From Agarophyton chilense (Eukaryota > Rhodophyta > Florideophyceae > Gracilariales > Gracilariaceae): 64,000 nucleotides of DNA. Shown one piece after another: positions 8,660 to 42,907 of the stretch. Position 1 is the first letter of the stretch. Each line of letters opens with the position of its first letter. The stretch is from contig JARGXX010000025.1 in NCBI GenBank assembly GCA_030374765.1, positions 310,001-374,000 on the forward strand, written 5' to 3'. Under the pieces are notes generated by a model, which saw nothing but the letters and a program-made list of their open reading frames with translations, ran no database searches and was not told the origin of the DNA. Position numbers and translations under genes: made by a program.

Positions 8660-8661
8660 AG

Positions 8662-17952: not shown

Positions 17953-18619
17953 TGTAGTATTCTACTATGTCGGGGAATCCGATATGTTGGTTTTTCGCGA
18001 AGTCGTGGTTGGAACTCATAAGTGAATGATGTCATCAAACTTGTGATATGAAATGGCATACCGCGTAGGATGCCTAGAGGCAGAATGTCTTAGTGGGACA
18101 CGTGGTATCACGAGTGGAGTGGCTTGCAACGGCGCATGTAGTGGCAATCCACCTGGCTGGTTTTACTACCCTTTGTAGCTAGACGTCCATTAGGGACCAT
18201 ACCCATACAGTGGTTTGGCTAAGTGGCTGACCACTGGGTATTATTTATATATTTATTTGGGCACTCACCCTGGCACACAGTATATAGTGTACCAGAGGTG
18301 AGCGCCGACTCCAAGTAAAGGAGACAACATGGGCATCATAACTATTCTGTTCCTCGCTTAGGATTCCTTAACCGGAGATCCAGACGAGCTATAATAAATA
18401 GTCAGCCCCCAGCCACTTCACGAGCCGTCTCGTACCTACGTACCTTCAACGTTTTACAGTTGCACTGTTCACCCTTGCTGGCGAGTAGTGGCCTTACACC
18501 CCACTTCCAGCTCGCTGGTGTTGTAGCTCTACCACCCCATTTCCTTCGCCGCCAGCGACCCATCGGCAGTCCGAACGCTGTCGCAGGTGTCTGCATTCTC
18601 TGTTAGAGCGGATACTACA
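17953..18619 (+). repeat. 3' LTR of element C (667 bp)
   Basis: Same length and ends as the 5' LTR at 7993, with 22 substitutions and no indel by my count. It is followed by the second GGATC target duplicate (18620-18624). Confidence 0.95.
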
Positions 18620-19735: not shown

Positions 19736-22700
19736 AAGGCCAATCGATACCCAGAACCTTGAAGGTGGAAAAGAACACGTCACAACCAGTTCCGGTTTGT
19801 CATATGAAGTACAACAACTATAAAGTACATGCTTCAATGTGTTTCTCCGATCGCCTTTCGGTTCCGGTCACCTGCGTGTTGGGTACGTGGGCCGGCCCAA
19901 ACGTCCTGAACTCCCGCGTCATACCTGAGGCGGTACTTCGGAACTGGAGCCGACCTCCTGACAACAACCCGCTGGTGGATGCAAATGAGCGCCCATTAAA
20001 CCTTAGAGGTATGTTCACCACTGTGGTGCAGCTCGGACACCTCAAAGTAAGACTGAAATTCTTTGTTGTCGACCGTTTACCAACAGACTGCCTACTAGGT
20101 ACGAACTTCATCGACAGACATGTCAAAGCAATCCTTCCTGGTTCCCGTACCGTCGCCCTACGTCACGGGGGACGAATTGTCATTTTAGGTAGTATAGAAA
20201 CCAAACGGGGATGGTTCGTCAAATTGAAGAAGGCGATATCCTCCGAAATGGTCTCCAACAAAGTGCGCATTACCAAACAGGTTGTTATCCCGCCAATGCA
20301 CCAAATATTGGTACCGGCGTCGTGTGCGACCCCCGGGCTGGTCATATTACAAAACCATCCGACTGTAGCACATCGACACCTCACCTTGATGGCCAACGAG
20401 ATTGTAGACAACATCCCAAATCAACCCTTTAAGGTATGTCTCAGTAACTTCAGCAGTCCTGACGTGAAGTTGCCGAAAATTACCAGTGTTGGCATCGCAC
20501 TACCGGCATCACAAGGGGTCTTCACCGTAGCTCACACTGATCTCGGCGAGATCGCCTTCGATAAGGAAGGGGGGTGCCCAAATACGTCCACAACCACAAA
20601 GGTATCGATAAATACCAACTTGGAAGAAAAGCTAACCGATAAGGAATCGGTAGACAAAGAAAAGGAACCTGACCCGGAGGGGCAATGAAAAGATACAGTC
20701 CATATCGGTGAAGAAAATGGCCAACTGCGGGGCCGTATTATTGACCTTCTGGAGGAGTTTGAAACTATGTGCTCTGGCCATCTGGGCCAAATTAAGGCCA
20801 CACAGCATCGCATCGAGCTTCTCCCTGACTCGAAGCCGATTTATCAGCAACCATACCGTGCAGGTCCGAAGGCGAGAGAAGTAGAACTCAAAGAAGTTGA
20901 GCGAATGCTCCAAGAAGGGGTAATTGAACCAGCCAACTCAGATTGGGCTAGTCCCGTGGTTCTGGTTCGGAAGAAAGGGGATAACCGTATGAGGTTCTGT
21001 GTGGACTACAGGAGGCTCAGTAGCGTGACGGGCAGGGATTCGTACCCGAAACCTAGAATGGATGAGTGCATAGACTCCTTGGGAGATGCGCAGATATTTA
21101 CCACGTTGGATGCTAATTGTGGTTATTGGCAGGTACCTGTAGGTGAGAAAGATTGATAAATTATAATATTCACGTGCCATGCAGGTTTGTTTCGCTTCAA
21201 GCGAATGCCATTCGGGTTGCGCAATGCTCCAGCCACCTTTCAAAGGGCACTGGACATCATCCTTTCGAAGGTTAAATGGACAACCGCCTTGGTATACATC
21301 GATGATGTATTGATCTATTCCAGATAGGTAGAAGAGCATTTTGCTCACGTACGCACCGTGGTAACTCTCCTAGCTGAGGCGGGGTTGACGCTGAAGCTAC
21401 GCAAATGCGTCTTATTTACTAGAACGGTTGAATACGTGGGCCACATCATAGGCCCTGGCACCCTACAGGTTGCGCAAAGGAACATGAGAGCCGTACAGGA
21501 GGTCAAGTTGCCACGATCCCAGACAGATGTATGATCCTTTATAGGTTAATGCAACGTCTATCGTCGCTTCGTGAAGGGATTCGCGAAAATAGGGGCTCCC
21601 CTCAACAAGAAGCTCCAGAAAGGTAAACCTGAACGGTTTGAGAAATTATCGAACGACGAAATGGATACCTTTGAGGAATTGAAACGAGCGCTGTTGTTGC
21701 CGCCAATCTTAGCGTTACCGAAAACAGGTCTGCCATACACGCTGGATACAGATGCATCCCATTCCCAAATTGGTTGTTGTCTCATGCAAGAGCAGCACAA
21801 CGGAGACAAATCACCTATAGGGTACTGGAGCCGCGCTATGAATGAGGCGGAGCAGAACTATACGGTAATTGTGAAGGAATGTCTAGCAGTAGTGTGGAGC
21901 ATGTTGATGCTCCGTCCATACCTTTATGGTGAGCGCTTTACGTTGCGCACGGACCACGACGCCTTAAGGTAGACCCTCGGACTCGCAGAGGCGTCTAGTA
22001 GACTTGCCCTTTGGAGGTTGAGACTGTCGGAGTTTGAATACGACGTACAGTACCGTCCAGGTATCAAGCACAACATAGCTGATGCTATGTGACGCTTAAA
22101 CACCTCAGGGTTAAAGACAGAACCTGTAAACGATGACATCCCTTTTTTGGTGTCATCAAACCAAAATGGTACCGGCGAACACCTAGAAGTATGTTTGGAC
22201 ATACCTGAAGAAGGTGCCTTGCGGAACACCGACATGGAAACGCAGATACTGACCCTAGAGGAAACGAACGTCATGCCCGTAACCCGAGAGGATTTTCTAC
22301 GAGAAAAGGCCCAAGATGCGTGCTGCAGAACCCTGGCTGACCAAATTGGTTTCAAAGGATCACCATTCGATGTGGACCACAATGGGTACATCTTGAGAAT
22401 GTCAACGTTGTATGGTAGCCTTCAAAAGGTGGTTCCGAAGGCGCTGCGCCCGAGAGTCTTGTATCTCGCGCACTACTGGCGACTATCGGAACACCCCGGT
22501 GCCACTAGGATGTATTACACCTTGAGGCAACAGTTCTATTGGCCTCATATGGCCAATGATGTCTATAACTTTCTAGGTCAATTCGAATCCTGTGTCCGTA
22601 CCCGTGGTGGAATTCGAAAGCATTGAAAGAACCTCAAGCTGTTTCCAGCAGCGGGTCCGCTAGAGTTTGTTGCAACAGACCTTCTAGGACCACTTCCCAA

Positions 22701-24003
22701 GACCAAGAATTGGTATCAGCACATTCTATTGATCAACGACAGGTTTTCGAAGGTCACGAGAGCGATACCTTTAAAGAAGACGAAGTCAACAACGCTGGCG
22801 ATCGCGTTCCTCAACAATTGGGTCTACCCGAGTGGTGTATAACTATACCTGCTTCTCGATAATGGTTCAAACCAGGCATCGAAGTTCTTCGAAGCAGTCT
22901 GTATCCTCTTGGGTACCATGCACTATTTCAATACTGCCTACCACCCGCAGACGAACGGACAGGTCGAGCGCTTTAACAACACATTGATATCAAGGCTACG
23001 AAACTATACAGAAGAGCACCAAACTGGGTGGGATGAGCTGGTGCAACCGCTCACCTACTCCTATAACCTTCAGGTACACAGGTCAAGGCAGACCAATCCC
23101 TTTGATTTGGTTCTTTCGCGACACCCCCCAGGTATTGTAGTGTAGGGAGATCATACCAACAGCACTGCAGCTGGCGCACTGACCCCTGCCCAGGTCAAAC
23201 GAAATACCATTGTGAGGTTGAGGAGGGCTCCCAAACATGCAGAGAGCCGCCTCATTGCAGCCCAGAAGCGGTACAAGGCCGACGACGACCGTAGGGAAAC
23301 CAAAGTGGTCTCTGTATCTTCGGGACAATATGTCTACATAGACAGCCAACCTTCAGGTGAAAGACCACGACCGGATGATAAAGCGGACGATGAAGCTATT
23401 GATAGAGATATCAATTCGAAGCTTCTACCCAAATCAGTAGGACCTTATAAGGTATTGAACGCATCATACCACACAGTTACGGTTGAACAAGATGGAATAC
23501 TGAATACGATATCAATTGACCGTATCACGGTAGCACCTGAAACGGTTCAACATCGCACTGAGGCAGGCACCTCAGCTCGACAGCCCAAAGCGGTAGCTCT
23601 GCGCACTCGACCCTCCGAAGACCCCACCCCAATTGAGGTGAATGATGGACTACAACGGGATGATCCGGATTACAACTCTCTAACAAGGACGGAAATGGAA
23701 CCTCACACGGTAACAGCGGGAGCTCCCGACCCGGCTCCCACACAAAAAGCTCCCAACTCGGAACATATGAACCCTCGAGGTAGCGTTCCCCCGAAAGATC
23801 AGGACCAAACCTCAGAGGAATTTTCCGTTGACCGTCTGGTGGGCCACACGCGAACCTACAATGGTCTGAAGTACACCGTAAGGTGGTACGGCTGGGGGCC
23901 AGAAGGGGACACCCTCGAACCTCCAAACGCAAGACACCCACACTTCCGTATCATGTATTGGCGCCGTCGCAAGGAGCCGATGCCTGCAGACGGCTTACCT
24001 TAG
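19711..24003 (+). pseudogene. pol of A-left: PR-RT-RNaseH-IN-chromodomain (about ten stops)
   Basis: The whole 4.3 kb stays in one reading frame. It is broken only by nonsense codons, at 20686, 21154, 21157, 21325, 21532, 21547, 21970, 22090, 22624, 22840 and 23143 (first base of each), with no frameshift. Recognisable parts are the protease region (LGTWAGPN, where the usual catalytic DTGA is changed), RT (CVDYRRLS; the catalytic motif reads YIDD), RNase H (DTDASHSQIG, then ERFTLRTDH), integrase (HHCC region with the last Cys replaced by Arg; LLLDNGSNQ; TNGQVERFN) and chromodomain (TVRWYGWGPEGDTLEP). Several stops fit CGA to TGA or TGG to TAG transitions. All of these stops recur in A-right. 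Confidence 0.85.
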
Positions 24004-24232
24004 ACCTTCCTGGTACTCAGGACGAAGGATGGGGGAGAAAAGACGTCGTTTTCGGCTGAACGTGGACGCATATGCGTGTCAGATTACCTACAAGGGAGGA
24101 CACGAAAGAACAACCGAATGTAACAGTAGAAGAGACAAGAAGAGACAACAGTTTACTTGAAGAAGGAGACACTAAGGAAGTCAAGTGGCAGGCGGCCGCT
24201 ATAAGAACCTTAAAGGTGAAGCGACAGAAAGT

Positions 24233-24612
24233 CTAGCCCCCGAATCTGGGAGTAGGAGGACTTGTCGGTTTAGGAGCGTTGGGAACGGGAGGAACCGCCG
24301 GAGCGGGTTGCAAAACCGCAGGGTTCAAGTAAGCACCTAGAAGGGGATCCGTCAAAGGGTCAGATGGCGCAGCAGTAGAGAAGCTCGCCAGATTGAAACC
24401 GGATGGGTGGCCAGTTTGTACATGTCCAATTGGGACTGATTCCGGAACTCACCAAGTTGGTTAAATGCCTTCATGTATTGCCCATGGCGCGGCAGCAATA
24501 CCTTAAGTGTTGTCGAGCCGTGGGAACGACCATTCGGGATGGCGCACGCAGGGACCTAGGAGGGGAATGAAGTTTGAGCAACCGGGAAAGGTGCGATACC
24601 AACCTCGTTAAA
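24233..24612 (-). pseudogene. Possible antisense-ORF remnant in A-left
   Basis: Read on the minus strand, two joined frames give a plausible coding tail: a Gln-rich stretch (RHGQYMKAFNQLGEFRNQSQ), a frameshift, then a Pro/Ala-rich end stopping with TAG at 24233-24235. One TAG interrupts the upstream part. Its place and Pro-rich end resemble the C-terminal tails of the antisense ORFs of B and C, but I see no residue-level homology, so this is tentative. The same sequence is in A-right (26521-26900). Confidence 0.3.
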
Positions 24613-24920
24613 CAGTGGGCTATACGGAAGCGGAATCGCAAGCAAGCAGGCCCACTACCGAAAAGGTGTCCGCGAGCGCGCTATTGACACTGCATCGCCC
24701 TCATGACAGTCCCTATCTGAATGGTTGTCGCTCAATTCGTGCGCCACCGTCGTCGCTCGCCCTCCCCAACCGACACTGGCGCCGAGTTCTGAAACTCAAG
24801 GGATCGCGCGCCGCGCCCCGTGAGCAACCGCTGACAGACACCACTCCGATGCCCGCGCCGCTGTCGCTCGCTACAACTCTATGGTTTGATGGAGGGAGAC
24901 ACGGGGCGTGTCTCACGGGT

Positions 24921-24930
24921 AGAAAGGGGG
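24921..24930 (+). promoter_or_regulatory. Polypurine tract of A-left
   Basis: AGAAAGGGGG lies two bases before the 3' LTR, at the normal plus-strand priming position. Confidence 0.7.
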
Positions 24931-24932
24931 TC

Positions 24933-25541
24933 TGTCGTATAGTGGCAGAAGGGCTGACCTTTGAGGTTGTCGATATACTACACTGACCTTGTAGGTGATG
25001 GATGCGAGGGATCATCGGCCATGCAGCCCCGGGCGAGCTACCATCTAGGTGTTGTCAGCCACGTGTAGTGCTGAAATGTACCTTCTGGTTGAGTAATTGT
25101 TAGTACTTGTAATTGTAATTATATTTGTTTTAGTACAGTAGTGGAGTGGCCACTTGGTACTGTAGCCAAAGTTGACCAGGTCTCTGAAACTAGGTCAGGG
25201 ACCGTGCCATGCTGGCACCTCCCGAGTGATCTGGAGAGTGCAGTCCACTGCATATAGGGAATTGCACCTCCCCCATCCTAATCTGGTAAAGACAGGCAGC
25301 ACTTGGGTCACGATTATACCTTTTGGATAATTTTTTCTCAACCACCACACAGGCTTTTCCGCGCGTCGACGCCTACAATCGTTCACCTACACGGTATAGG
25401 CAAGTTGCTCCGCCATTTGCTCCTGCGGGTTTTCACGGTGCCTTGTTACCATCGAGGTTTACTAAGTCTACCTTCTAATGTTGAGCGTCACCACGCGCCC
25501 GAGAAAAGACAGTAGCGTACCCCAGAGGTAATTGTACGACA
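24933..25541 (+). repeat. 3' LTR of A-left (609 bp)
   Basis: Begins TGTCGTA and ends TACGACA, a 7-bp terminal inverted repeat. It is the same length as the oppositely oriented LTR at 25592-26200, with about 9 substitutions between them. The following pentamer is CCATA. Confidence 0.95.
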
Positions 25542-25591: not shown

Positions 25592-26200
25592 TGTCGTACA
25601 ATCACCTCTGGGGTATGCTACTGTCTTTTCTCGGGAGCGTGGTGACGCTCAACATTAGAAGGTAGACTTAGTAAACCTCGATGGTAACAAGGCACCGTGA
25701 AAACCCGCAGGAGCAAACGGCGGAGCAACTTGCCTATACCGTGTAGGTGAACGATTGTAGGCGTCGACGCACGGAAAAGCCTGTGTGGTAGTTGAGAAAA
25801 AATTATCCAAAAGGTATAATCGTGACCCAAGTGCTGCCTGTCTTTATCAGATTAGGATGGGGGAGGTGCAGTTCCCTATATGCAGTGGACTGCACTCTCC
25901 AGATCACTCGGGAGGTGCCAGCATGGCACGGTCCCTGACCTAGTGTCAGAGACCTGGTCAACTTTGGCTACAGTGCCAAGTGGCCACTCCACTACTGTAC
26001 TAAAACAAATATAATTACAATTACAAGTACTAACAATTACTCAACCAGAAGGTACATTTCAGCACTACACGTGGCTGACAACACCTAGATGGTAGCTCGC
26101 CCGGGGCTGCATGGCCGATGATCCCTCGCATCCATCACCTACAAGGTCAGTGTAGTATATCGACAACCTCAAAGGTCAGCCCTTCTGCCACTATACGACA
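25592..26200 (-). repeat. 3' LTR of A-right (609 bp)
   Basis: Inverted copy of 24933-25541, of equal length. A polypurine tract on the minus strand (complement of 26203-26212) adjoins it. Confidence 0.95.
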
Positions 26201-26520
26201 GACCCCCTTTCTACCCGTGAGACACGCCCCGTGTCTCCCTCCATCAAACCATAGAGTTGTAGCGAGCGACAGCGGCGCGGGCATCGGAGTGGTGTCTGTC
26301 AGCGGTTGCTCACGGGGCGCGGCGCGCGATCCCTTGAGTTTCAGAACTCGGCGCCAGTGTCGGTTGGGGAGGGCGAGCGACGACGGTGGCGCACGAATTG
26401 AGCGACAATCATTCAGATAGGGACTGTCATGAGGGCGATGCAGTGTCAATAGCGCGCTCGCGGACACCTTTTCGGTAGTGGGCCTGCTTGCTTGCGATTC
26501 CGCTTCCGCATAGCCCACTG

Positions 26521-26900
26521 TTTAACGAGGTTGGTATCGCACCTTTCCCGGTTGCTCAAACTTCATTCCCCTCCTAGGTCCCTGCGTGCGCCATCCCGAA
26601 TGGTCGTTCCCACGGCTCGACAACACTTAAGGTATTGCTGCCGCGCCATGGGCAATACATGAAGGCATTTAACCAACTTGGTGAGTTCCGGAATCAGTCC
26701 CAATTGGACATGTACAAACTGGCCACCCATCCGGTTTCAATCTGGCGAGCTTCTCTACTGCTGCGCCATCTGACCCTTTGACGGATCCCCTTCTAGGTGC
26801 TTACTTGAACCCTGCGGTTTTGCAACCCGCTCCGGCGGTTCCTCCCGTTCCCAACGCTCCTAAACCGACAAGTCCTCCTACTCCCAGATTCGGGGGCTAG
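26521..26900 (+). pseudogene. Possible antisense-ORF remnant in A-right
   Basis: Mirror of 24233-24612, including the same internal TAG and the same frameshift, ending with TAG at 26898-26900. Same caution: position and Pro-rich tail suggest an antisense accessory ORF, but homology to those of B and C is not visible. Confidence 0.3.
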
Positions 26901-27129
26901 ACTTTCTGTCGCTTCACCTTTAAGGTTCTTATAGCGGCCGCCTGCCACTTGACTTCCTTAGTGTCTCCTTCTTCAAGTAAACTGTTGTCTCTTCTTGTCT
27001 CTTCTACTGTTACATTCGGTTGTTCTTTCGTGTCCTCCCTTGTAGGTAATCTGACACGCATATGCGTCCACGTTCAGCCGAAAACGACGTCTTTTCTCCC
27101 CCATCCTTCGTCCTGAGTACCAGGAAGGT

Positions 27130-30100
27130 CTAAGGTAAGCCGTCTGCAGGCATCGGCTCCTTGCGACGGCGCCAATACATGATACGGAAGTGTGGGTGTC
27201 TTGCGTTTGGAGGTTCGAGGGTGTCCCCTTCTGGCCCCCAGCCGTACCACCTTACGGTGTACTTCAGACCATTGTAGGTTCGCGTGTGGCCCACCAGACG
27301 GTCAACGGAAAATTCCTCTGAGGTTTGGTCCTGATCTTTCGGGGGAACGCTACCTCGAGGGTTCATATGTTCCGAGTTGGGAGCTTTTTGTGTGGGAGCC
27401 GGGTCGGGAGCTCCCGCTGTTACCGTGTGAGGTTCCATTTCCGTCCTTGTTAGAGAGTTGTAATCCGGATCATCCCGTTGTAGTCCATCATTCACCTCAA
27501 TTGGGGTGGGGTCTTCGGAGGGTCGAGTGCGCAGAGCTACCGCTCTGGGCTGTCAAGCTGAGGTGCCTGCCTCAGTGCGATGTTGAACCGTTTCAGGTGC
27601 TACCGTGATACGGTCACTTGATATCGTATTCAGTATTCCATCTTGTTCAACCGTAACTGTGTGGTATGATGCGTTCAATACCTTATAAGGTCCTACTGAT
27701 TTGGGTAGAAGCTTCGAATTGATATCTCTATCAATAGCTTCATCGTCCGCTCTATCATCCGGTCGTGGTCTTTCACCTGAAGGTTGGCTGTCTATGTAGA
27801 CATATTGTCCCGAAGATACAGAGACCACTTTGGTTTCCCTACGGTCGTAGTCGGCCTTGTACCGCTTCTGGGCTGCAATGAGGCGGCTCTCTGCATGTTT
27901 GGGAGCCCTCCTCAACCTCACAATGGTATTTCGTTTGACCTGGGCAGGGGTCAGTGCGCCAGCTGCAGTGCTGTTGGTATGATCTCCCTACACTACAATA
28001 CCTGGGGGGTGTCGCGAAATAACCAAATCAAAGGGATTGGTCTGCCTTGACCTGTGTACCTGAAGGTTATAGGAGTAGGTGAGCGGTTGCACCAGCTCAT
28101 CCCACCCAGTTTGGTGCTCTTCTGTATAGTTTCGTAGCCTTGATATCAATGTGTTGTTAAAGCGCTCGACCTGTCCGTTCGTCTGCGGGTGGTAGGCAGT
28201 ACTGAAATAGTGCATGGTACCCAAGAGGATACAGACTGCTTCGAAGAACTTCGATGCCAGGTTTGAACCATTATCGAGAAGCAGGTATAGTTATACACCA
28301 CTCGGGTAGACCCAATTGTTGAGGAACGCGATCGCCAGCGTTGTTGACTTCGTCTTCTTTAAAGGTATCGCTCTCGTGACCTTCGAAAACCTGTCGTTGA
28401 TCAATAGAATGTGCTGATACCAATTCTTGGTCTTGGGAAGTGGTCCTAGAAGGTCTGTTGCAACAAACTCTAGCGGACCCGCTGCTGGAAACAGCTTGAG
28501 GTTCTTTCAATGCTTTCGAATTCCACCACGGGTACGGACACAGGATTCGAATTGACCTAGAAAGTTATAGACATCATTGGCCATATGAGGCCAATAGAAC
28601 TGTTGCCTCAAGGTGTAATACATCCTAGTGGCACCGGGGTGTCCCGATAGTCGCCAGTAGTGCGCGAGATACAAGACTCTCGGGCGCAGCGCCTTCGGAA
28701 CCACCTTTTGAAGGCTACCATACAACGTTGACATTCTCAAGATGTACCCATTGTGGTCCACATCGAATGGTGATCCTTTGAAACCAATTTGGTCAGCCAG
28801 GGTTCTGCAGCACGCATCTTGGGCCTGTTCTCGTAGAAAATCCTCTCGGGTTACGGGCATGACGTTCGTTTCCTCTAGGGTCAATATCTGCGTTTCCATG
28901 TCGGTGTTCCGCAAGGCACCTTCTTCAGGTATGTCCAAACATACTTCTAGGTGTTCGCCGGTACCATTTTGGTTTGATGACACCAAAAAAAGGGATGTCA
29001 TCGTTTACAGGTTCTGTCTTTAACCCTGAGGTGTTTAAGCGTCACATAGCATCAGCTATGTTGTGCTTGATACCTGCACGGTACTGTACGTCGTATTCAA
29101 ACTCCGACAGTCTCAACCTCCAAAGGGCAAGTCTACTAGACGCATCTGCGAGTCCGAGGGTCTACCTTAAGGCGTCGTGGTCCGTGCGCAACGTAAAGCG
29201 CTCACCATAAAGGTATGGACGGAGCATCAACATGCTCCACACTACTGCTAGACATTCCTTCACAATTACCGTATAGTTCTGCTCCGCCTCATTCATAGCG
29301 CGGCTCCAGTACCCTATAGGTGATTTGTCGCCGTTGTGCTGCACTTGCATGAGACAACAACCAATTTGGGAATGGGATGCATCTGTATCCAGCGTGTATG
29401 GCAGACCTGTTTTCGGTAACGCTAAGATTGGCGGCAACAACAGCGCTCGTTTCAATTCCTCAAAGGTATCCATTTCGTCGTTCGATAATTTCTCAAACCG
29501 TTCAGGTTTACCTTTCTGGAGCTTCTTGTTGAGGGGAGCCCCTATTTTCGCGAATCCCTTCACGAAGCGACGATAGACGTTGCATTAACCTATAAAGGAT
29601 CATACATCTGTCTGGGATCGTGGCAACTTGACCTCCTGTACGGCTCTCATGTTCCTTTGCGCAACCTGTAGGGTGCCAGGGCCTATGATGTGGCCCACGT
29701 ATTCAACCGTTCTAGTAAATAAGACGCATTTGCGTAGCTTCAGCGTCAACCCCGCCTCAGCTAGGAGAGTTACCACGGTGCGTACGTGAGCAAAATGCTC
29801 TTCTACCTATCTGGAATAGATCAATACATCATCGATGTATACCAAGGCGGTTGTCCATTTAACCTTCGAAAGGATGATGTCCAGTGCCCTTTGAAAGGTG
29901 GCTGGAGCATTGCGCAACCCGAATGGCATTCGCTTGAAGCGAAACAAACCTGCATGGCACGTGAATATTATAATTTATCAATCTTTCTCACCTACAGGTA
30001 CCTGCCAATAACCACAATTAGCATCCAACGTGGTAAATATCTGCGCATCTCCCAAGGAGTCTATGCACTCATCCATTCTAGGTTTCGGGTACGAATCCCT

Positions 30101-31423
30101 GCCCGTCACGCTACTGAGCCTCCTGTAGTCCACACAGAACCTCATACGGTTATCCCCTTTCTTCCGAACCAGAACCACGGGACTAGCCCAATCTGAGTTG
30201 GCTGGTTCAATTACCCCTTCTTGGAGCATTCGCTCAACTTCTTTGAGTTCTACTTCTCTCGCCTTCGGACCTGCACGGTATGGTTGCTGATAAATCGGCT
30301 TCGAGTCAGGGAGAAGCTCGATGCGATGCTGTGTGGCCTTAATTTGGCCCAGATGGCCAGAGCACATAGTTTCAAACTCCTCCAGAAGGTCAATAATACG
30401 GCCCCGCAGTTGGCCATTTTCTTCACCGATATGGACTGTATCTTTTCATTGCCCCTCCGGGTCAGGTTCCTTTTCTTTGTCTACCGATTCCTTATCGGTT
30501 AGCTTTTCTTCCAAGTTGGTATTTATCGATACCTTTGTGGTTGTGGACGTATTTGGGCACCCCCCTTCCTTATCGAAGGCGATCTCGCCGAGATCAGTGT
30601 GAGCTACGGAGAAGACCCCTTGTGATGCCGGTAGTGCGATGCCAACACTGGTAATTTTCGGCAACTTCACGTCGGGACTGCTGAAGTTACTGAGACATAC
30701 CTTAAAGGGTTGATTTGGGATGTTGTCGACAATCTCATTGGCCATCAAGGTGAGGTGGCGATGTGCTACAGTCGGATGGTTTTGTAATATGACCAGCCCG
30801 GGGGTCGCACACGACGCCGGTACCAATATTTGGTGCATTGGCGGGAGAACAACCTGTTCGGTAATGCGCACTTTGTTTGAGACCATTTCGGAAGATATCG
30901 CCTTCTTCAATTTGACGAACCATCCCCGTTTGGTTTCTATACTACCTAAAATGGCAATTCGTCCCCCGTGACGTAGGGCGACGGTACGGGAACCAGGAAG
31001 GATTGCTTTGACATGTCTGTCGATGAAGTTCGTACCTAGTAGGCAGTCTGTTGGTAAACGGTCGACAACAAAGAATTTCAGTCTTACCTTGAGGTGTCCG
31101 AGCTGCACCACAGTGGTGAAAATACCTCTAAGGTTTAATGGGCGCTCATTTGCATCCACCAGCGGGTTGTTGTCAGGAGGTCGTCTCAAGTTCCGAAGTA
31201 CCGCCTCAGGTATGACGCGGGAGTTCAGGACGTTTGGGCCGGCCCACGTACCCAACACGCAGGTGACCGGAACCGAAAGGCGATCGGAGAAACACATTGA
31301 AGCATGTACTTTATAGTTGTTGTACTTCATATGACAAACCGGAACTGGTTGTGACGTGTTATCTTCCTCCTTCAAGGTTCTGGGTATCGATTGGCCTTCC
31401 ATTTGCAGGTTGGGTTCGGCCAT
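27130..31423 (-). pseudogene. pol of A-right: PR-RT-RNaseH-IN-chromodomain (broken)
   Basis: It has the same domain order as A-left pol and carries every one of its internal stops. The RT segment 29978-30367 encodes exactly the same 129 residues as its partner. Private changes are an extra T in a homopolymer (A7 on the plus strand near 28985-28991), which shifts the frame between RNase H and integrase, and a CGA to TGA change ending a segment at 27553. Inactive. Confidence 0.85.
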
Positions 31424-32531
31424 TACGCCAACCCTTCGGTGTTTTCCTCCTGTACGGGAGGGGTTGAGTCCAAGTTTAGTGTTTCCTCGATGGTATTGAC
31501 CTGTATCGGTGCACAGGGTTGGAACCTATTTGGTGCTTGCGTTGAAGACGGATAGAGGCGTTGGTGATTCTGCATGCTAGACTGAATCAACTGGTCTCTC
31601 ATCCCTCGACGTAAGTTAGCGCAATTGTTTGCCAAATGGTCTGTCGCAAGGCAGAACCAGAAAACGAGGCCTCCAGTTTGGAGGTCTCGCGTTACCATTG
31701 AGGGGGCTTCGAAACCTGGTTGGTAGGAGCAGTGGCGTAGAATGTGGGTGGCGAGTTATGGGAGCTTGCTCCCTGCATTCTCTGCGAGCTCACCGCACTG
31801 GGCGGCGATTGTACCGAGTTTGGTGTACGTGTTGACGACCAATTTCCTACCGTCGAAGGTTTCGAAAACCGCCCCTGGGTCGCTACAAAGTGGATAGTGG
31901 TCCCTCTAGGTACTTCGAGGTGCGAGCTACCCTCTGAGGTTGTGGTATCTTCAATTTCCAAGACTGACCTTTTCGGTTTATCCTTCGAGGTTGGAGGCAC
32001 GTCTGGTCTCTTTCCCAACCGAAGAGTATCTCCAAGGCCCTGGGAGTATCGAGCCAGCCCATTGTAGTCTACCTTGCGGTTAGTGGCCAGGTAGTTGCAT
32101 ACCTGGGAACGGATCGCTGTGTCGACATTGTCGGCAAATAGCGACTTCAACCTAGAGGTAGTGAACACATTACCACAACGGGTTGCCAGATTCCACAGCG
32201 CCAGCGAAAACTCCGATTCGGATTGCCCAGACCTTTGATGGTAAGCGAGGACTTTGGAGTAAGCCTCTAGGATAACCTCTTCGGTGGCGTATGTTTCCAA
32301 AAGGAAATTGACCACTTCTGGGTATGACTCCAACATCTCTGTGCCATCCTCATCCATCGCTAAAGTATTTCCGCGGAGACTACCCTGCAGCAAGTAGTAT
32401 GCTTGCACTTTCAGGTAAAACTGAAATAGCCACATAGCAGCGCCCTCTGAAAAACCATTTTGGTCACATGCAATCTTGAACTTCTGTAGAAACTCAATCA
32501 CCGCAATAGGACCCGTACCTGTGTAGGTTGT
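31423..32531 (-). pseudogene. gag part 2 of A-right (capsid and zinc knuckle)
   Basis: The capsid-like part (31692-32531) is open, without the two stops seen in A-left. The zinc-knuckle frame (31423-31698) has lost its first Cys (FWFC instead of CWFC) and ends in TAATG, where the stop overlaps the ATG of pol. An apparent longer frame reaching 32960 continues into the LTR of element B and is not a real gene start. Confidence 0.8.
32527..32531 (+). repeat. Target-site duplicate GTTGT, left side of element B
   Basis: GTTGT precedes the LTR at 32532 and recurs at 42908-42912 after the other LTR. Removing element B and one copy restores the gag frame of A-right. Confidence 0.95.
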
Positions 32532-33444
32532 TGTGGAGCAAAACCCGGCGACGGGAAGTGCTCTCAAGGTGTTCGAAGCCTTGCTCCCTGGGGGAGGCAG
32601 ACTCAGAGACAGAGCCCTCCGTTCCACCCGTAGTGTGGGGTGTAACTCCCACGGGGGATTCCGGCTGTACCGACGGAGGTGAGGGGTAGAAACCGTTGGA
32701 TCGGGAATGGGTATGGGTATCCCAAAGAATGGGGGAAAATCCGGCGAAGAGGAAAAACGGGGCGAGGGTCGGGCACCAGCAGGCACCGGACCCGAGAACC
32801 AGAAAAGGGGCGAAACAACAAAAGAAACCCAATACAGGGGCGAAAACCTGTCCTCGAAAGGAAACACAAAAAGCACGCAACAAGTAAGCAGAACCCCCAC
32901 GGGGTATCGTGCACCCAGGTCGTCTGAGCGGTCCCAAGGGGGTGGTTGCACGGAACCCAAACGTGGGCACTCTCCAAGTGGAGTCGTGTCCCTACGCAGG
33001 TGTTGCTAACCAGAGCCCGTTCCGGGTTGTAAGGCCGAAACGATGGCGACGAAGAACCTCTAAAGGTATCGAAGACCAACCTTGGTTGTCATTTACTCTG
33101 AGCTCGGACTGTCAGATCTCGCCTCCCTAAGTAGGGCCCACTAACTAAACTCTACAGTATTGCACACCTGCTCAGGGCCATACACGTGGAGATCCCACTG
33201 CCAGGGCCCAAAAGTCCAACGTTCTACAAATATCCGAAAATCGGTGCCAAAATTAAGCCACGTGTATCACGGGGCCAATCCAACCATGGGCCATCCGAAT
33301 TTTCCCTTATAGGCGAAATATAACCGGAAAACAGTGCCACCTCAGCACACCTTAGAGGGGATCATAATCATAACCCTCGGAGGGTTCAATCCTCATTCTA
33401 TGAGTTGCATCTTCAAGTATCCCCTGATTGGGCGTTGCTCTACA
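32532..33444 (-). repeat. 3' LTR of element B (913 bp)
   Basis: On the minus strand it begins TGTAGAGC and ends GCTCCACA. It pairs with 41995-42907. Frames of up to 158 codons inside it occur in both LTRs on both strands and look non-coding. Confidence 0.95.
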
Positions 33445-33523: not shown

Positions 33524-35380
33524 ATGGGGTCCTTCACCACTTCTGAGGATCGCCACAAAACCGGCACATCGGTACAACTTTCTTCTACTCCTCCGACTTT
33601 CGGCGATACGCAACTTCTCGCAGCAGCGGTTTCGACTAGCCCTCTCAAGGGAATGAACCCATACGTCATCAACCCACTCTCGGGGCCATCGGCCTCCGCG
33701 CCGGCGGACAACGAAGCTCCCCAGCAGGGTGGATATTTCTCCGGTTTGGATGCGGCTCCGTCAGGTACCGAACCTTCCGCCTCGGCGGGCAACCGACATC
33801 CTCAGGAGGATTTGGACATCACCGCGGTGGCGTGGAACTCCGCTCATGCGATGCCCTTGGTAGCAAACTCCAGAGGTTGGATCTCAAACGAATCCTTTCG
33901 AAGGTGGAGTCCCCTTACCGATCCGGTGATATATTCCCGCTCTCCGTGGTTCCATCCGACAGCGGTTCGCGACGATGAGCTCATCGACTCCTACGTGGAG
34001 GACGGCTTATTGCCGGGTGGCCTACCTGTCGTGGTTGTACGTTCTCCCGATTGGAGGGCGCGGGTAGCCATAGAGCCTCAGTATCTATACCGCAGTCGCG
34101 GGGAGTCCCTGGACAAGGCGCGCGCAGCGATGGCGGCTCTGGCCTACCAGCGATTGGAGAGGTCACGCTTTGACCATCTGGTTCCCCCGGAGTACGGGTT
34201 CGATGTCGCCTATTACCGCACGTACGGTGAGGTCTCCTACGGGGATAACCTGGCAGCCTTTCTCGAAGCCGAGTTCCGCGGACCGGGTTTTCCTCTCCGA
34301 GAAGATATGCTCCAATGGAGTCGTCCTATCCTTCGGGCTGAATTCAGGTACCTTCAACGGCAGTTTACCCAGTATGGGTTCGATCGACGCGTGCGCTTCG
34401 AGCGCCGCTCGCGCTCCCGTTTCGGGTTCTTTGTCCCATATCCTCACGTGGAACTGGAGCGTATCCGTAACACGGCGAAGGTTGGGCGATTCGTGCCCCT
34501 TCCAGCTTGGTGGAGTAAGGTCGAGGCCCCCCGAGGGTGCTTTGCTGAACTGCCCCCATGCATCTACTATATCGGGTCTCGTTTGATGCACGACCCGAAC
34601 TTGGGATACTGGGCCCTCGTTGCAGCCGAGTGGGCAGCCCGCGTAGCGGCGCACCTCCTCTGGGATGCTCATGACCATTTCCGTATCTGGTATATTCCTC
34701 CGATGCTACGGACCATCATGAATCAGATCGACTTTGTCCCAGCGTTGGGTTCGGCCAGCAGCGTGCAGGACCTGTATCCAATCTTGGACGTGATCGACAA
34801 CACCCAATGGGATCGAGTACCAGTGGAAAATCAGCCAGCAGGGGAAGGGTCCGCGCGAGACAAGTCTCCTGGCCGGTACGATCCGGGCTCCGGTAACTGG
34901 GTCTATTTCAATCCCTTCAAAGGGGTTCGCATCAGCGCGTCGCAAGCACGGGCGCTGATTGACTCGCCTCGACCAATGGCGGTGGGACACCCGACGGGGT
35001 TCATTTATACCGACGATTACGAGTACGAGCCTCAAGTAGACCTGGACGATCCAACGTTGGATAACGACATGCCAGCTCCTAGTGGAGTACTCTCTGTGGG
35101 GCCATCTGCACCCTTCCAACCAGTGGGAACGACCTCAGCTGCGGCGGCGAATGCATCCGGGGGCGGTCCATCTGCTCCCCCCGGATGGGGTGTGAACACC
35201 CTTGCGCAGGCGCCGGTTGCAACTCCGCAAGCGGAAAGTGTGCGACAAGGCCTCGTGAACGCAGGCATTCCGATTCCCCCGGGTATGACGGATGTGAGCC
35301 AGATGTTGGCTTTCGCCTCGGCGTACCATCAGGGTCAGAATCCCAACGGTGGGGCGGGTCCCTCCTCGGGCTTTCCGTAG
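33524..35380 (+). CDS. Antisense accessory ORF of element B (intact)
   Basis: This uninterrupted frame is antisense to gag-pol, between the 3' LTR and the chromodomain. The frame opens at 33428 inside the LTR, but Met at 33524 (MGSFTTSED) is the first ATG outside it, giving 618 residues. The N-terminal 100 residues are Ser/Pro/Ala-rich and probably disordered. The core (about 120-400) is rich in Arg, Trp and Tyr, with conserved blocks SPWFHPTAVRDDELI, ILRAEFRYL, RRSRSRFGFFVPY, EAPRGC, YYIGS and LLWDAHDHFRIWY. The tail is Gly/Pro-rich and ends GPSSGFP. The homologue in element C (16102-17784) aligns over the core and into the tail (VRQGLVNAGIP with LRQFLLDAGFP). I see no signal peptide, catalytic motif or known domain. 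Antisense extra ORFs are known in some plant LTR elements, but I recognise no relation to them. Possible roles (coat, chromatin or host-silencing partner) are speculation. Confidence 0.8.
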   Translation: MGSFTTSEDRHKTGTSVQLSSTPPTFGDTQLLAAAVSTSPLKGMNPYVINPLSGPSASAPADNEAPQQGGYFSGLDAAPSGTEPSASAGNRHPQEDLDITAVAWNSAHAMPLVANSRGWISNESFRRWSPLTDPVIYSRSPWFHPTAVRDDELIDSYVEDGLLPGGLPVVVVRSPDWRARVAIEPQYLYRSRGESLDKARAAMAALAYQRLERSRFDHLVPPEYGFDVAYYRTYGEVSYGDNLAAFLEAEFRGPGFPLREDMLQWSRPILRAEFRYLQRQFTQYGFDRRVRFERRSRSRFGFFVPYPHVELERIRNTAKVGRFVPLPAWWSKVEAPRGCFAELPPCIYYIGSRLMHDPNLGYWALVAAEWAARVAAHLLWDAHDHFRIWYIPPMLRTIMNQIDFVPALGSASSVQDLYPILDVIDNTQWDRVPVENQPAGEGSARDKSPGRYDPGSGNWVYFNPFKGVRISASQARALIDSPRPMAVGHPTGFIYTDDYEYEPQVDLDDPTLDNDMPAPSGVLSVGPSAPFQPVGTTSAAAANASGGGPSAPPGWGVNTLAQAPVATPQAESVRQGLVNAGIPIPPGMTDVSQMLAFASAYHQGQNPNGGAGPSSGFP

Positions 35381-35737: not shown

Positions 35738-36028
35738 TTACCCGACTTGGGCACGATCCAGATTTGGAGGCAAGGTTACCCGAGCGCGTCGGTGATAGGA
35801 TAAAACCTTAGACCTCGGAAGGTGCTCAATGGGTTCCACTGTATCCTCCTCAGGCGAGAATCCGTACCATCGGACTTGGTAGCGAACTTCTCCCTCGGGG
35901 GTGTAGATGTGATGCACGATGCGATCGATAACGAATTCCTGCGGGTACGCTTTTCCCTGTTCGGGCTTCTCTTCCATCTTGGAACGCTCTAGTTCCCTTG
36001 AGGGTGTCAACGTAGGGTCTAGACACAC

Positions 36029-36583: not shown

Positions 36584-39542
36584 TCAAATTTGGTCAACCT
36601 TGTTGTCGAGATCTTCCCCGTGCGGGTCCGCTGACACAGCTCGTTCCCGAGAAAGCGGGGTTTGAGTGTGCGACACCTCAGTGTCTCTTCCGCGGCGGCG
36701 GGTGATCGTAGGCTCTGTAGGCGTTCCTGGTGCGGAGTTCTCCACACGACTCTCCCTAGGCGGGGTTTCGTCATCTTTTCTGACGTCGTACTCGGCTGGG
36801 TCGGCGGTGATGTCGCTACCCATACGCTGGGGTTGTGACTTCTCTGTCGCCGGCTCGGTCGGGCTCGCCGTCTCACTGTGAGAACTAGATTCCCTGTTAG
36901 GGCGACTGGCTGACGCCAAAACATCGTCCTGCGAAGGAACTAAGTCCTCCTCCCCCTCCTTAGGCGGAGAGCCAGGAGGCTTGATTACCTCCGGTGGGGG
37001 AGTAACTCTGTAAGAGTTCCTTGACTGGGCCCTTGAGGGAGCAGGCCCAGGTTCGGGAGTATCCGAAGTTAAAGAGCCGGTCGGCGAGTCCAGACTCTCG
37101 TTGACGAGTATATCGTCACAAACATCATCCGTCAGCGGTTGCGCTCCTCCCTCGAGGTCCGATTCCATAAAGCATGGGATGTCATCGTCCTCGTAGGGTT
37201 CCGTTTCTGCTGTGGTTCCCAAGCGGGATAGTGCATCAGCCTGAGTGTTCAGCTTCCCTTTCTTGTACAGGATCTCAAAGTCGAATTCCGACAGTCGGAG
37301 ACGCCAGCGCATAAGGCGGCCCGACGGTTCGGAGATCTCCAGGAGCCAACGCAAGCATGCGTGGTCCGTATGGACTTTGAAACGAGTACCCATCAGATAG
37401 GGGCGAAGTGTGGCTAAGGCCCACACACCGGCTAAACATTCTTTCTCGGAGACCGAGTAGTTCCTTTCATGGACATTCAGGGAACGTGACCAGTACCCAA
37501 TAGGGTGACGTTCACCATCCTCAGAGGATTGGAACAGTGCACACCCTACTTGGTTTGCACTAGCATCGGTGTCCACTTCGTAAGGGAGCCCAGGATTGGG
37601 TAGAGCCAAGATTGGTGGTGATGTTACGGCATTCACCAGTGCCGTGAAGGCAGACGCTTCCGCGTTGCCAAAAGGTTCCAGTTCAACTGGTTGTCCCTTC
37701 GTCAGGAGCCTGTTGAGGGGGGTGGCAATATCCGCAAAGTTCGGGACGAATCGTCGATACACGTTACACAGACCTAAGAAGGATCGCAACTCCGTTTGAG
37801 TTTTCGGGTGTTTTGCTTCCTTCAAGGATTTCACTCGTACTTCATCGATTGAAAGCTGTCCGGGACGGATGATATGACCCAGATACTTAACCGAATCCGT
37901 GAAAAACTCGCACTTCTTGAGTTTCAAGGTGATTCCCGCGTCGCGGAGTATCTTTATTACGTCCCTGACGTGTTCGAGGTGGTCATCCAGGTTGTTGGAG
38001 AAGACAATAATGTCGTCTAAATACACTAGAAACGTCCTCCACTTGAAGGGAGCCAACAGAATGTCTATCGCCCGTTGAAACGTTGCGGGGGCATTTGTCA
38101 ACCCAAAAAGGCATCCTCCGGAATCGGAAAAGTCCTTGATGACACACGAAAGCCGTTTTGTCTCGATCTTCCTCCTTAATAGGGACTTGCCAGTAGCCCG
38201 AATTGGCGTCGAGGGTAGAGAAAACAGTAGCGCTCCCAAGGGAGTCGATGTATTCGTCCATCCGAGGGATCGGGTACACATCCTTAATGGTTACCTCGTT
38301 CAGGCGTCTGTAATCGATGCAGAAACGCCACGATCCATCCGGTTTCGGAACTAACACCACTGGTGAGGCCCAAGCGGACTGGGCAGGTTTAATCACGCCC
38401 GCTTTAAGCATCTTCTCCACATGAGATATCTCCTCTTCCCGAGCTTTCGGTCCAGCCCTGTAAGGGTGTTGGGCAATAGGCCGAGTGTTCGGTAACAAGT
38501 CGATGCGGTGTTCTGTAATCCCAATAGTTCCAAGGGAACCATCCCACATGGGGGTAAATTCACGAAGCATGTGCCTCAGCTTCTCCCGATGAGATGCGGG
38601 TACATGGTTGAGATCCCATTTTTCCAATTCCTGAACAGGATCCGTCTGGTCTGCTCCTGTGATAGGGGCCGTAACCTCCTGAGGTTTAAAGTGTTCAGCG
38701 TGTGGAGCTGCAGTCGTATGCTCACCGTCTTCCGCGATTTCGGCAGTGTCCTCCCCCTCCTTAGGGTCTGCCACACCAAGGACCTCTGCGATAGAGATCT
38801 TTGTAGGTACGACCGCATGCGGGTGTGGAAGAACAGAACCCAGGATCTGGTGTTTGACCAAATGCTGCGTTGTCTTTCCAAAGTTGGCTACCAAAACCTT
38901 GAAAGGTTTATCCGGTTCCACGGAGACAACCCCATTCGCAAGGGCGAGTTGACGCCGCGTATACAGAGACGGGTTCGGTTGTACCACATGCACACCAATT
39001 TGCTTGGTAATAACTGTGACCCAAACCTGGGTTTCTGGCGGGATAGCCACTGACTTCGCAACCTTTACCCGTGTAGACACCGGGTCCTTCTTCACAGATT
39101 TCTGCGCGACGGGGAGAGGGACGCGTGTTCGCGCTGCTCCCTGTAAGGGTTTACGAACGATTGGGATCGTAGACCCGTCTTCGAGTTCCACAGTTCTATT
39201 CTGAGGACGGATGGCTTCCACGAAGCGGTCGCAAAAGTCACAACCCAGTATGACTGGTGCTGCAAGTGACTTGCATACAATAAACTCCAGTTGAACGAGA
39301 TAGGAGCTTAACCTCACCATGAGGGAAATTGTACCTAGTGTCTGTAGCGGGTTGTTGTTCGCATCGGCGATATCCAAACGTGGACCGGTACGAACTTGGA
39401 CCCAGAGCAGCGGGGGTAACAATTCCACATGAATTAAGTTAGGAGCGGCTCCTGTATCCAGGACAGATATTTGACGAACCATAAACTGGTGGGACAGGCC
39501 GAAGTCGGCGAATACTTTATAATTCCGCTTGGCCATTACCAT

Positions 39543-39736: not shown

Positions 39737-41767
39737 TTAGTTTTTCGAAGCGGACCCCACCGAATTCGGTGCAGCTGCCTCGAAGGGGACCGGTTGTTCC
39801 CCGTTCGCCGGTACAAGTTCTGTATCCCTGTCAGCAAGGTGAGCTCGGAGTATCCTTTGTTCCTCATAGGACCTACTCGGGACTCGAGCTTTCTCCTCAG
39901 GGGTCAGAGCCTCGTACTGAGCGATAATTCGTGAACCCTCCCGCAGGGGAAATGTGCAGTCTGGTGCTTTGTGACCATGGAGGTAACACAAATAGCAAAT
40001 CAGCTCTGCCGGGTTCGGTTGTGGACGTGAACCCACGCGACGTGGTGCTGTATCCCTCCATCCGGGGCGAGAGAACCGAGCAGCGGTATTCGCAAAAGGT
40101 AGCGATGCGGCTGGCACCCTCCGTCCTTGGGTATAGAGCGCAGGGTCTTCATCCGTAGTCGGAGCGGATATCGACGGCAACTCAGGCGTACCCATAGATT
40201 CGGGGTTACTTCCCATGAAGTGAATGTTATCATTGACCCCCACAGGGGCAGAGCCTCCTGCGAGTGACAAGGACGAGTTACCTCCATCGGCGAGGAGTGC
40301 ACGTGTCGGCCGACTCTTTCGGTTCTGCAGGGCACGGAGAGTATCCCCCTCAGCCTGGGCGTACTGAACCAGTTCCAAGTAGGTCAGCTTGCGCTTCTCT
40401 TCCAGATGTCGGGCAACCAATGCCCTTATCGAGGGGTCCAAACCATCCACAAACATGGAGCATCTCTCATAGGCGGGGAATACATTCCCGCATCGGTGAA
40501 ACGCTTTATTCAAGCGAGTTGAATACACCTTTTCGGTTTCCATCGGCTTCTGCCGCGTATCCCTTAATACAAGGATTGCTTCCTGAATCGCATTTCCAGT
40601 AGCGTATGACCTCAAGAGGTACTGCACCGCTTCGGGCCAGCACCTGACTCCCCCTTCCGAGGCTCGGGATGATCCACGGACGGAGTTGAACTGGTCTTCA
40701 GCCATCCCCTTTAAGAAATAAAGTAATGCCAGATACGCTTGCGCTTCACTCATACCGAGGATGTCAGCCTCCTGGACGAACCTCGCAAGGAAATCGAGCA
40801 CCAGAATTGGGTCTGTTCCTGTGAACTCCCTCTTCTGTAGGGTGATGCTCAGCCTTTTGATGTAGTCCTTGACCTTACCCGTTCCGCGGGATGTTCGATC
40901 TCCCGAAGGGTTATCCAACCGGTAATAGCGGTACCATAGCAGCTTCCGATAGAGAGGATTCGTCGGCTTCAGCTCCATTAATCCAAGGTGTTTCCTACCC
41001 TTCTTCCGGGTACGAATTGCCCCTTGAGAGGTGTAAGTAGCCTTCGACCGAGTCGCCCGGGATGACCGGCGTCCATCTTCACTATCCGAAGATTCGGAGG
41101 ACGAACTCGATGACGAGCGATTGGGATCGGAATCCGATAAATCCTCTTGGAGGTGAACCCTCTTCTTGGACTTGCGGCGGTCCCGTTTAGCGGAGCGGTG
41201 TTCTTCGTCTTCCGAAACGTCGGGTTTATCCTTCGAGGCTTCTGCGTCTCCGTCCATACGGATAATGGCCTCGAGGGTGTCCAGCCGAGCTCGGAAGCGT
41301 TCCGCTTGCACGCGGTGTTCCTCCACGAGGCTCCGGTACTCCTGAATAAAGACCCCAGGGGTACTAAAGCTTTCCAAAAGGGAGTTCACATCCCTCCTCA
41401 GCGTACGAAGGTCATCGGCGACTCCCCGCACCGGGGCGTCTTCCACCTTGAGGCGGAGGGTAGTAGCCTCCTGAAGGAGCTCGACGTGAGCCGCGTTGGC
41501 GATATCGATTCGAGTCTCCAGGCGCTGTAATTCAGGGTCGGCCCGACTTCGGGGTGCTGCTGAGGGGGTCTCCACCACTGGAGCTGGGCCCACAGCCACG
41601 ACCTCTCGAGGACCTGAAACCACTGAGGGTGCTCTCCGAGTGTCCGGATCGATACCGGAATCGTTCCGACCTTCAGGAATTGAGCTCCTCGGCCTAGGCG
41701 GGGCCGGGGGCACTGAATCCGCTTGACGGTTCGATCCAGTCCTGGAACCACGGGTAGGCGGCGTCAT
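39737..41767 (-). CDS. gag: Gag polyprotein of element B (intact, 676 aa)
   Basis: Gag forms the particle that packages element RNA and hosts reverse transcription. The ORF is uninterrupted. The first 90 residues are Pro/Arg/Ser-rich, followed by a predicted coiled coil (about 75-170, PELQRLETRIDIANAAHVEL and onward). A charged linker has Ser runs (about 180-245). The capsid-like region (about 250-470) contains NPLYRKLLWYRYYRL and PEAVQYLLRSYATGNA, both matching element C. A CCHC knuckle (CYLCYLHGHKAPDC, C-x2-C-x4-H-x4-C) follows near 600. The N-terminal half is longer than in most Ty3 Gags. The start is the first Met in frame and lies about 230 nt inside the 5' LTR. It is the best-preserved gag in the window. 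Confidence 0.9.
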   Translation of the reverse strand: MTPPTRGSRTGSNRQADSVPPAPPRPRSSIPEGRNDSGIDPDTRRAPSVVSGPREVVAVGPAPVVETPSAAPRSRADPELQRLETRIDIANAAHVELLQEATTLRLKVEDAPVRGVADDLRTLRRDVNSLLESFSTPGVFIQEYRSLVEEHRVQAERFRARLDTLEAIIRMDGDAEASKDKPDVSEDEEHRSAKRDRRKSKKRVHLQEDLSDSDPNRSSSSSSSESSDSEDGRRSSRATRSKATYTSQGAIRTRKKGRKHLGLMELKPTNPLYRKLLWYRYYRLDNPSGDRTSRGTGKVKDYIKRLSITLQKREFTGTDPILVLDFLARFVQEADILGMSEAQAYLALLYFLKGMAEDQFNSVRGSSRASEGGVRCWPEAVQYLLRSYATGNAIQEAILVLRDTRQKPMETEKVYSTRLNKAFHRCGNVFPAYERCSMFVDGLDPSIRALVARHLEEKRKLTYLELVQYAQAEGDTLRALQNRKSRPTRALLADGGNSSLSLAGGSAPVGVNDNIHFMGSNPESMGTPELPSISAPTTDEDPALYTQGRRVPAASLPFANTAARFSRPGWRDTAPRRVGSRPQPNPAELICYLCYLHGHKAPDCTFPLREGSRIIAQYEALTPEEKARVPSRSYEEQRILRAHLADRDTELVPANGEQPVPFEAAAPNSVGSASKN

Positions 41768-41974
41768 GCTGCAGACACGACACCGACGATTCGGGGTAAC
41801 GATGAAATTCGATCACGAGATTCCCGGAGAACGGATGACGTAACACAAAACAAAAATAAAAACCAATTCCACCCTTTCCCAAGGGGACCACTACAACAAA
41901 TCTTCACGACGGTGCTTCCTCTTCCAAGAGATATTCCAACACGTGGATGACCAACCCAAAAGTCGGAGAACGGA

Positions 41975-41992: not shown

Positions 41993-41994
41993 CT

Positions 41995-42907
41995 TGTGGA
42001 GCAAAACCCGGCGACGGGAAGTGCTCTCAAGGTGTTCGAAGCCTTGCTCCCTGGGGGAGGCAGACTCAGAGACAGAGCCCTCCGTTCCACCCGTAGTGTG
42101 GGGTGTAACTCCCACGGGGGATTCCGGCTGTACCGACGGAGGTGAGGGGTAGAAACCGTTGGATCGGGAATGGGTATGGGTATCCCAAAGAATGGGGGAA
42201 AATCCGGCGAAGAGGAAAAACGGGGCGAGGGTCGGGCACCAGCAGGCACCGGACCCGAGAACCAGAAAAGGGGCGAAACAACAAAAGAAACCCAATACAG
42301 GGGCGAAAACCTGTCCTCGAAAGGAAACACAAAAAGCACGCAACAAGTAAGCAGAACCCCCACGGGGTATCGTGCACCCAGGTCGTCTGAGCGGTCCCAA
42401 GGGGGTGGTTGCACGGAACCCAAACGTGGGCACTCTCCAAGTGGAGTCGTGTCCCTACGCAGGTGTTGCTAACCAGAGCCCGTTCCGGGTTGTAAGGCCG
42501 AAACGATGGCGACGAAGAACCTCTAAAGGCATCGAAGACCAACATTGGTTGACATTTACTCTGAGCTCGGACTGTCAGATCTCGCCTCCCTAAGTAGGGC
42601 CCACTAACTAAACTCTACAGTAGTGCACACCTGCTCAGGGCCATACACGTGGAGATCCCACTGCCAGGGCCCAAAAGTCCAACGTTCTACAAATATCCGA
42701 AAATCGGTGCCAAAATTAAGCCACGTGTATCACGGGGCCAATCCAACCATGGGCCATCCGAATTTTCCCTTATAGGCGAAATATAACCGGAAAACAGTGC
42801 CACCTCAGCACACCTTAGAGGGGATCATAATCATAACCCTCGGAGGGTTCAATCCTCATTCTATGAGTTGCATCTTCAAGTATCCCCTGACTGGGCGTTG
42901 CTCTACA
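41995..42907 (-). repeat. 5' LTR of element B (913 bp)
   Basis: Same length as 32532-33444, with about 5 substitutions: four between about 42530 and 42625 and one near the end (CCTGACTGG versus CCTGATTGG). Confidence 0.95.

Follow-up and report, generated by a model that had tools for sequence, protein, structure and literature searches.

A conserved antisense gene in Ty3/Gypsy retrotransposon families of the red alga Agarophyton chilense

The closest described systems are the aORF-3R or eORF-3′R genes of plant LTR retrotransposons (gene23 of Grande, RIRE2, ORF4 of Retand, and PvRetro13), which lie antisense between pol and the 3′ LTR and are retained in most copies of a family (PMC7264820; PMC11963269, accessible part). 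According to the accessible part of the latter, ORF4 of Retand, an element of a non-chromovirus lineage, carries a Transposase_28 domain (PMC11963269). The Grande counterpart has a nuclear product and its own promoter (PMC7264820). According to the accessible text of a survey of green plants, most OTA (non-chromovirus) elements have extra ORFs, which can lie in either orientation. Their proteins are highly divergent, with no domain common to most of a lineage, and this divergence has led to their function being questioned; the same portion of the survey mentions no chromovirus that carries a conserved antisense gene (PMC6317226). Outside plants, the Boty-like Gypsy elements of Botrytis cinerea carry the additional antisense gene brtn (PMC8365987, accessible part; PMC7264820). 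In HTLV-1 the antisense product HBZ is nuclear, and the HTLV antisense promoter lies in the 3′ LTR (PMC11963269, accessible part; PMC7264820).

We analyzed a window of 64,000 nucleotides from Agarophyton chilense (positions 310,001 to 374,000 of contig JARGXX010000025.1); genome-wide counts refer to the whole assembly of 79.8 Mb in 135 contigs. In this assembly the phycobilisome linker family has 13 matches, seven of them on a single contig and six elsewhere, which is consistent with a red alga. The window contains an inverted pair of copies of one element, A, with a second element, B, inserted in one A copy and a third, C, in the other (Table 1). The insertion points of B (7992/7993, duplication GGATC) and C (42907/42908, duplication ACAAC) are at homologous positions in the two A copies, 17 bp apart, making this part of element A a possible integration hotspot. 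The LTRs of B are ~667 bp long and 96.7% alike, those of C ~913 bp and 99.5% alike, and the LTR sequences of the two elements differ, which bears out the view of an earlier note on this DNA that B and C belong to different families. Directly after the 5′ LTR, both elements have the identical 20-nt stretch AGTGGTCTCCCGACTTAGAA (8660-8680 in B, 41973-41993 in C), and this sequence, common to elements whose LTRs differ, is presumed to be the primer-binding site. We also observed a purine-rich sense-strand tract between the chromodomain and the antisense gene in B (15850-16060, plus strand) and in C (35440-35570, minus strand), peaking at 0.83 and 0.80, respectively, in 60-base steps and additional to the tract adjoining the 3′ LTR. 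The chromovirus label of B and C rests on the chromodomain at the end of pol, which was identified in these two elements.

Table 1. Coordinates of elements A, B, and C and their features in the window.
Feature	Position	Strand	Remarks
Element B 5′ LTR	7993..8659	+	
Element B RT and RNase H	12127..13647	+	Pfam
Element B integrase (H2C2 and core)	13729..15354	+	Pfam
Element B chromodomain-holding frame	15146..15847	+	Pfam Chromo 32.6 bits, over cut-off
Element B antisense gene	16102..17784	-	560 codons, two in-frame stops
Element B 3′ LTR	17953..18619	+	Target duplication GGATC
Element A inverted pair	18620..25541 and 25592..32514		Arms 98-99% alike, 50 nt between
Element A pol and chromodomain-like region	20600..24003	+	Chromo 16.9 bits, under cut-off
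Element C 3′ LTR	32532..33444	-	TGTAG...CCACA, target duplication ACAAC
Element C antisense gene	33524..35380	+	618 codons, intact
Element C chromodomain, limits approximate	35795..35945	-	Pfam Chromo 33.8 bits, over cut-off
Element C rest of RT, RNase H, and post-integrase tail	36584..38281	-	Integrase deleted at 37070/37071
Element C protease region (by position) and first part of RT	37983..39542	-	
Element C gag	39737..41767	-	By position, without Pfam match
Element C 5′ LTR	41994..42907	-	Followed by AGTGGTCTCCCGACTTAGAA, presumed primer-binding site

The earlier note had claimed that B and C each carry a long ORF antisense to gag-pol, and this is what we find. In C, the gag, PR-RT, and RT-RNaseH ORFs are all on the minus strand and the antisense gene is on the plus strand, ~80 nt from the inner edge of the 3′ LTR; in B, RT and integrase are on the plus strand and the gene on the minus strand. 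Both genes, read directly, are placed between pol and the 3′ LTR. Two in-frame stops split the B frame into 360 + 116 + 82 codons. Of the 30 B loci read, 6 (L037, L041, and L044-L047) have this 560-codon frame without interruption, a count in which L044-L047 score identically and L043 is not validly scored. The C copy in the window does not look autonomous because it has lost its integrase and, beyond what the earlier note described, its RT is spread over two overlapping ORFs in different frames.

The B and C proteins share the block LRAEFR, at which five of the six codons differ synonymously (CTT CGG GCT GAA TTC AGG in C, CTC CGT GCG GAG TTC CGC in B), just as had been noted. We compared the C gene with the intact B copy L044 in all six frames against all six. 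The gene frame gave 33% identity over 486 amino acids (254 bits, E 3e-80). Similarity was also scored for two sense-sense pairs, one at 95 bits (E 4e-24) between frames with 21 and 26 stops and one at 50 bits (E 1e-9) between frames with 8 and 6 stops, and none of the remaining frame pairs passes E 0.03. We read the two sense-sense similarities as shadows of the gene frame. Among 542 aligned codons, 175 encode the same residue, 123 of these with a different codon, and third bases at fourfold sites are identical in 17 cases and different in 58. The protein similarity together with the randomized fourfold sites therefore indicates that the protein, not the DNA, has been kept.

The antisense gene is present in at least six families of the genome. 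C-type genes were found at 170 or more places (the union of three genome searches), and B-type genes have at least 113 relatives. Further families came from a motif search for PRGCxxExP encoded by codons that differ from those used in B and C. Three variants of this search gave 4, 51, and 3 matches, and the reversed motif, used as a control, gave 0, 1, and 0. Of the set of 4, three reappear in the set of 51 and the remaining one is a C copy; the set of 3 includes one C copy and one B copy. By sequence, the 51 matches can be sorted into four types, namely D (13 matches), E (19 or 20), F (13 or 14), and G (5), with one match equally near to E and F. One copy of each type was read (4 of the 51 matches), and three of these are broken: D and E are each split between two frames, and the longest open stretch in G does not exceed 126 codons. 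In the F copy the frame is open for 584 codons, or 558 if counted from the first ATG. All four loci are homologous to the B and C proteins and to P0001, a database relative described below (tblastn best E per locus ≤1e-75, weakest query 1e-42). An integrase lies beyond the gene on the opposite strand in all four copies, so that the gene is opposite to pol in each of the six families read. Element A serves as an outgroup without the antisense gene: its copies in the window have an integrase, and their only match to the gene is a chance-level one of 17 residues (E 0.81). Two other genome searches were made; with P0001 as the query, at least 75 places of 49-52% identity were found and no new family was recognized, and with a 64-amino-acid block all of the at least 150 scored places were 92-100% identical.

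Over seven sequences, the gene core is 32-68% identical with 28 invariant columns. Pairwise identities of the core are 51% for C-D, 48% for C-G, 64% for B-F, and 41% for B-C, and those of the integrase are 65%, 63%, 59%, and 50%, respectively, within a range of 42-65% over ten pairs; E, with only 115 integrase residues read, is excluded from these pairs and from the integrase tree. The gene core thus appears, from these alignments, nearly as well conserved as the integrase. In the gene core tree B, E, and F are split from C, D, G, and P0001 (100/100). The integrase tree sets B and F (98/98) apart from C, D, and G (99/99); A falls outside these groups, on a long branch of unsure placement. The proposal in the earlier note that the gene is vertically kept is accordingly supported at the division of B and F from C, D, and G, the one that both trees resolve.

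Selection on the antisense protein, which had been proposed from LRAEFR, is also seen in substitution rates. Across 15 between-family gene pairs dN is 0.16-0.74, below 0.75 in every pair, and dS is not estimable in 10 pairs and 1.4-3.6 in the other 5. The B-E pair has a dN of 0.16 and a dS of 2.1, and the weakest contrast is that of E-G (dN 0.74 against dS 1.44). For comparison, ten integrase pairs have a dN of 0.26-0.53, with dS not estimable in 9. From these comparisons, we consider it very probable that the antisense ORF is a selected gene for an accessory protein.

Variation within families has a different character. In the C family, 30 loci have a mean pairwise identity of 97.5%, and diversity is concentrated in third positions of the antisense frame. 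Singletons in these loci comprise 141 synonymous changes, 265 non-synonymous changes, and 16 stops (omega about 0.78), doubletons 20 synonymous to 24 non-synonymous (omega 0.50), and variants present in three or more copies 22 to 16 with no stops (omega about 0.3; Fisher p 0.0075). In the B family, omega is about 0.96 for singletons and 0.54-0.75 for shared variants, a borderline difference (p 0.051) with only mild constraint on the shared variants. The 30 loci per family are the best protein matches and so are biased towards kept copies. Of 150 C blocks chosen by the 64-amino-acid piece, 52 belong to frames that stay open for 618 codons or more; the neutral expectation, from the changes in the 30 loci and ignoring indels, is that ~0.41 of copies would be without a stop. 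Singletons are near neutral and the shared changes of C constrained, and therefore copies appear to decay freely after insertion while selection acts along the transposing lineages. The dN/dS comparison called for in the earlier note is thus divided, with dN under dS between families and singleton ratios near 1 (0.8-1.0) within them. We attribute the near-1 ratio to the decay of inserted copies, and a test of this kind would mislead if applied to young copies.

Deletion of the integrase seems to be recurrent in the C family. Compared with L061, a copy with integrase domains, the C copy in the window lacks 1359 bp at its junction. We sorted 77 C RT places by query coverage: 35 are apparently full length (a class within which L061 alone was read), 25 have the junction of the window copy, and two classes of 13 and 4 places are joined differently. 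Since 25 of the 77 places share junction 37070/37071 and 17 show others, forms without integrase seem to have originated repeatedly. A gene copy lies opposite to RT at the characteristic distance in at least 45 of the 77 places and on the same strand in 0. By class, these lower bounds are 26 of 35 full-length places, 11 of 25 with the window junction, and 8 of 13 and 0 of 4 with the others. The deleted forms, which presumably move in trans, keep the antisense gene at least in part.

Searches with the protein returned few relatives. Pfam gave no family over its cut-off and none at E ≤ 0.1; at E ≤ 10, seven proteins or pieces gave only two under-threshold matches, in a search whose HMMER filters drop most weak matches. 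When matches up to E ≤ 10 were listed for C, P0001, and two B copies, Transposase_28 (PF04195) was not one of them, and neither a genome-wide search for it nor the controls of that search gave a match. PHROGs gave a single match (E 0.88), NCBIfam none at E ≤ 1, and a profile search of solved structures none at E ≤ 1. In a protein database, both searches (best 7993 candidates scored) found one relative, P0001, a 581-amino-acid unnamed protein on an ENA contig of 21,947 bases. Among IMG/VR viral contigs, 74 stretches fitted a pattern and none was confirmed. AlphaFold2 models from three-row alignments had a mean pLDDT of 29.6 (full length) and 30.4 (core) and were unusable. By 19-residue hydropathy, a crude measure, the full-length proteins have no transmembrane-like stretch (maximum 1.05 in C, 1.22 in B, and 1.33 in P0001), and an F piece reaches 1.63. 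The pI is 5.0-6.4, and aromatic residues make up 11-12%. By eye, we observe low-complexity ends, which are probably disordered, an Arg-rich RxERRxRSRxG core motif in B and C, and PRGC; a conserved stretch around GYW...LW may form a helix.

We favor an explanation in which a chromodomain Ty3/Gypsy lineage gained the gene, antisense between the chromodomain and the 3′ LTR, before the families diverged, and would have passed it down together with pol ever since. An antisense mRNA, starting within or close to the inner edge of the 3′ LTR, would be translated into a soluble accessory protein of 560-618 amino acids. Most likely, though unproven, this would be a nuclear nucleic-acid-binding regulator that aids expression of the element, its nuclear steps, or its escape from silencing. 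As a whole, we give this explanation somewhat less than an even chance, and its nuclear regulator is more tentative still, being favored because of the analogy with the nuclear product and own promoter of Grande. The Arg-rich motif is no more than suggestive of nucleic-acid binding, and the pI, unlike that of a strongly basic binder, argues against it. Alternatively, the protein could have an unknown fold and act as an enzyme or against silencing, for instance in counter-defence against small-RNA or chromatin silencing by the host. A core kept nearly like the integrase, in which certain Arg, Glu, Asp, and Cys residues are invariant, would suit such an activity, but no catalytic signature or domain was recognized in Pfam, PHROGs, or NCBIfam, the AlphaFold2 models gave no usable fold, and we regard this as rather unlikely. 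Slightly more doubtful is a structural or particle-associated partner made from the antisense mRNA and acting in assembly or in a cell-to-cell or extracellular step, like ENV. Env-like genes likewise lie between pol and the 3′ LTR (PMC7264820), the content of aromatic residues would fit, and the integrase-deleted forms, presumably in need of trans complementation, partly retain the gene. However, the gene is antisense to pol in all six families read, unlike env, and the full-length proteins have no convincing membrane span (1.05-1.33, against 1.63 in the F piece).

Two further explanations dispense with a selected protein. An antisense RNA, regulatory or an siRNA precursor, could be the conserved product, with the frame incidental; dsRNA from antisense transcripts may silence elements (PMC7264820). 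A function in RNA only is rejected by the codon data and is very improbable, because it would not preserve the frame, and protein similarity persists despite randomized synonymous sites. The frame could also be a shadow of sense-strand coding or of a structural constraint. This would account for the 95-bit and 50-bit sense-sense similarities between B and C, and one sense frame, because its wobble position coincides with that of the gene, seems to be similarly constrained in C. The frames of the two sense-sense pairs contain stops and score far lower than the gene frame, the C diversity falls in third positions of the antisense frame, and every sense frame is interrupted (the longest open run on that strand is 180 codons in C and 271 in L044). 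A full explanation by the sense strand, which the earlier note had named as a refutation, is therefore rejected, and we give this the lowest probability of all. Returning to the inherited accessory gene, a bolder and distinctly unlikely extension is that the new conserved protein family is a defining, required part of the algal chromodomain lineage that would act in trans against silencing or in licensing nuclear steps, and that integrase-deleted subfamilies would keep it since local expression benefits the carrier.

An antisense gene that is kept in at least six families, its core nearly as conserved as the integrase, makes a clean case for an antisense accessory protein that matters to its element. 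The many open copies in one compact genome make the question of function (nuclear regulator, particle partner, or anti-silencing factor) testable. Among the titles and abstract starts listed for the open-licence literature, we found no red-algal or chromovirus antisense ORF of this kind. The nearest known protein is P0001, which is 48% identical over 91% of the C protein and which the core tree places together with C, D, and G. The plant aORF-3R and eORF-3′R genes have the same antisense placement between pol and the 3′ LTR, but no domain similarity to them was found, and the algal protein has no Transposase_28 match. The suggestion that the algal protein is unrelated to those of plants is thus supported in a negative sense, by the lack of a Pfam family over cut-off and of Transposase_28 at E ≤ 10. 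In green plants most OTA elements have extra ORFs, and the proteins of these are highly divergent, whereas the algal carriers have chromodomains and one protein family extends across at least six families. Like brtn of Boty, to which it is likened by description, the algal gene is antisense in a Gypsy element; with HBZ of HTLV-1, an antisense gene as well, the analogy is one of arrangement only. Altogether, the arrangement is already known in plants and fungi; what appears to be new is the protein family, together with its being conserved in elements that have a chromodomain.
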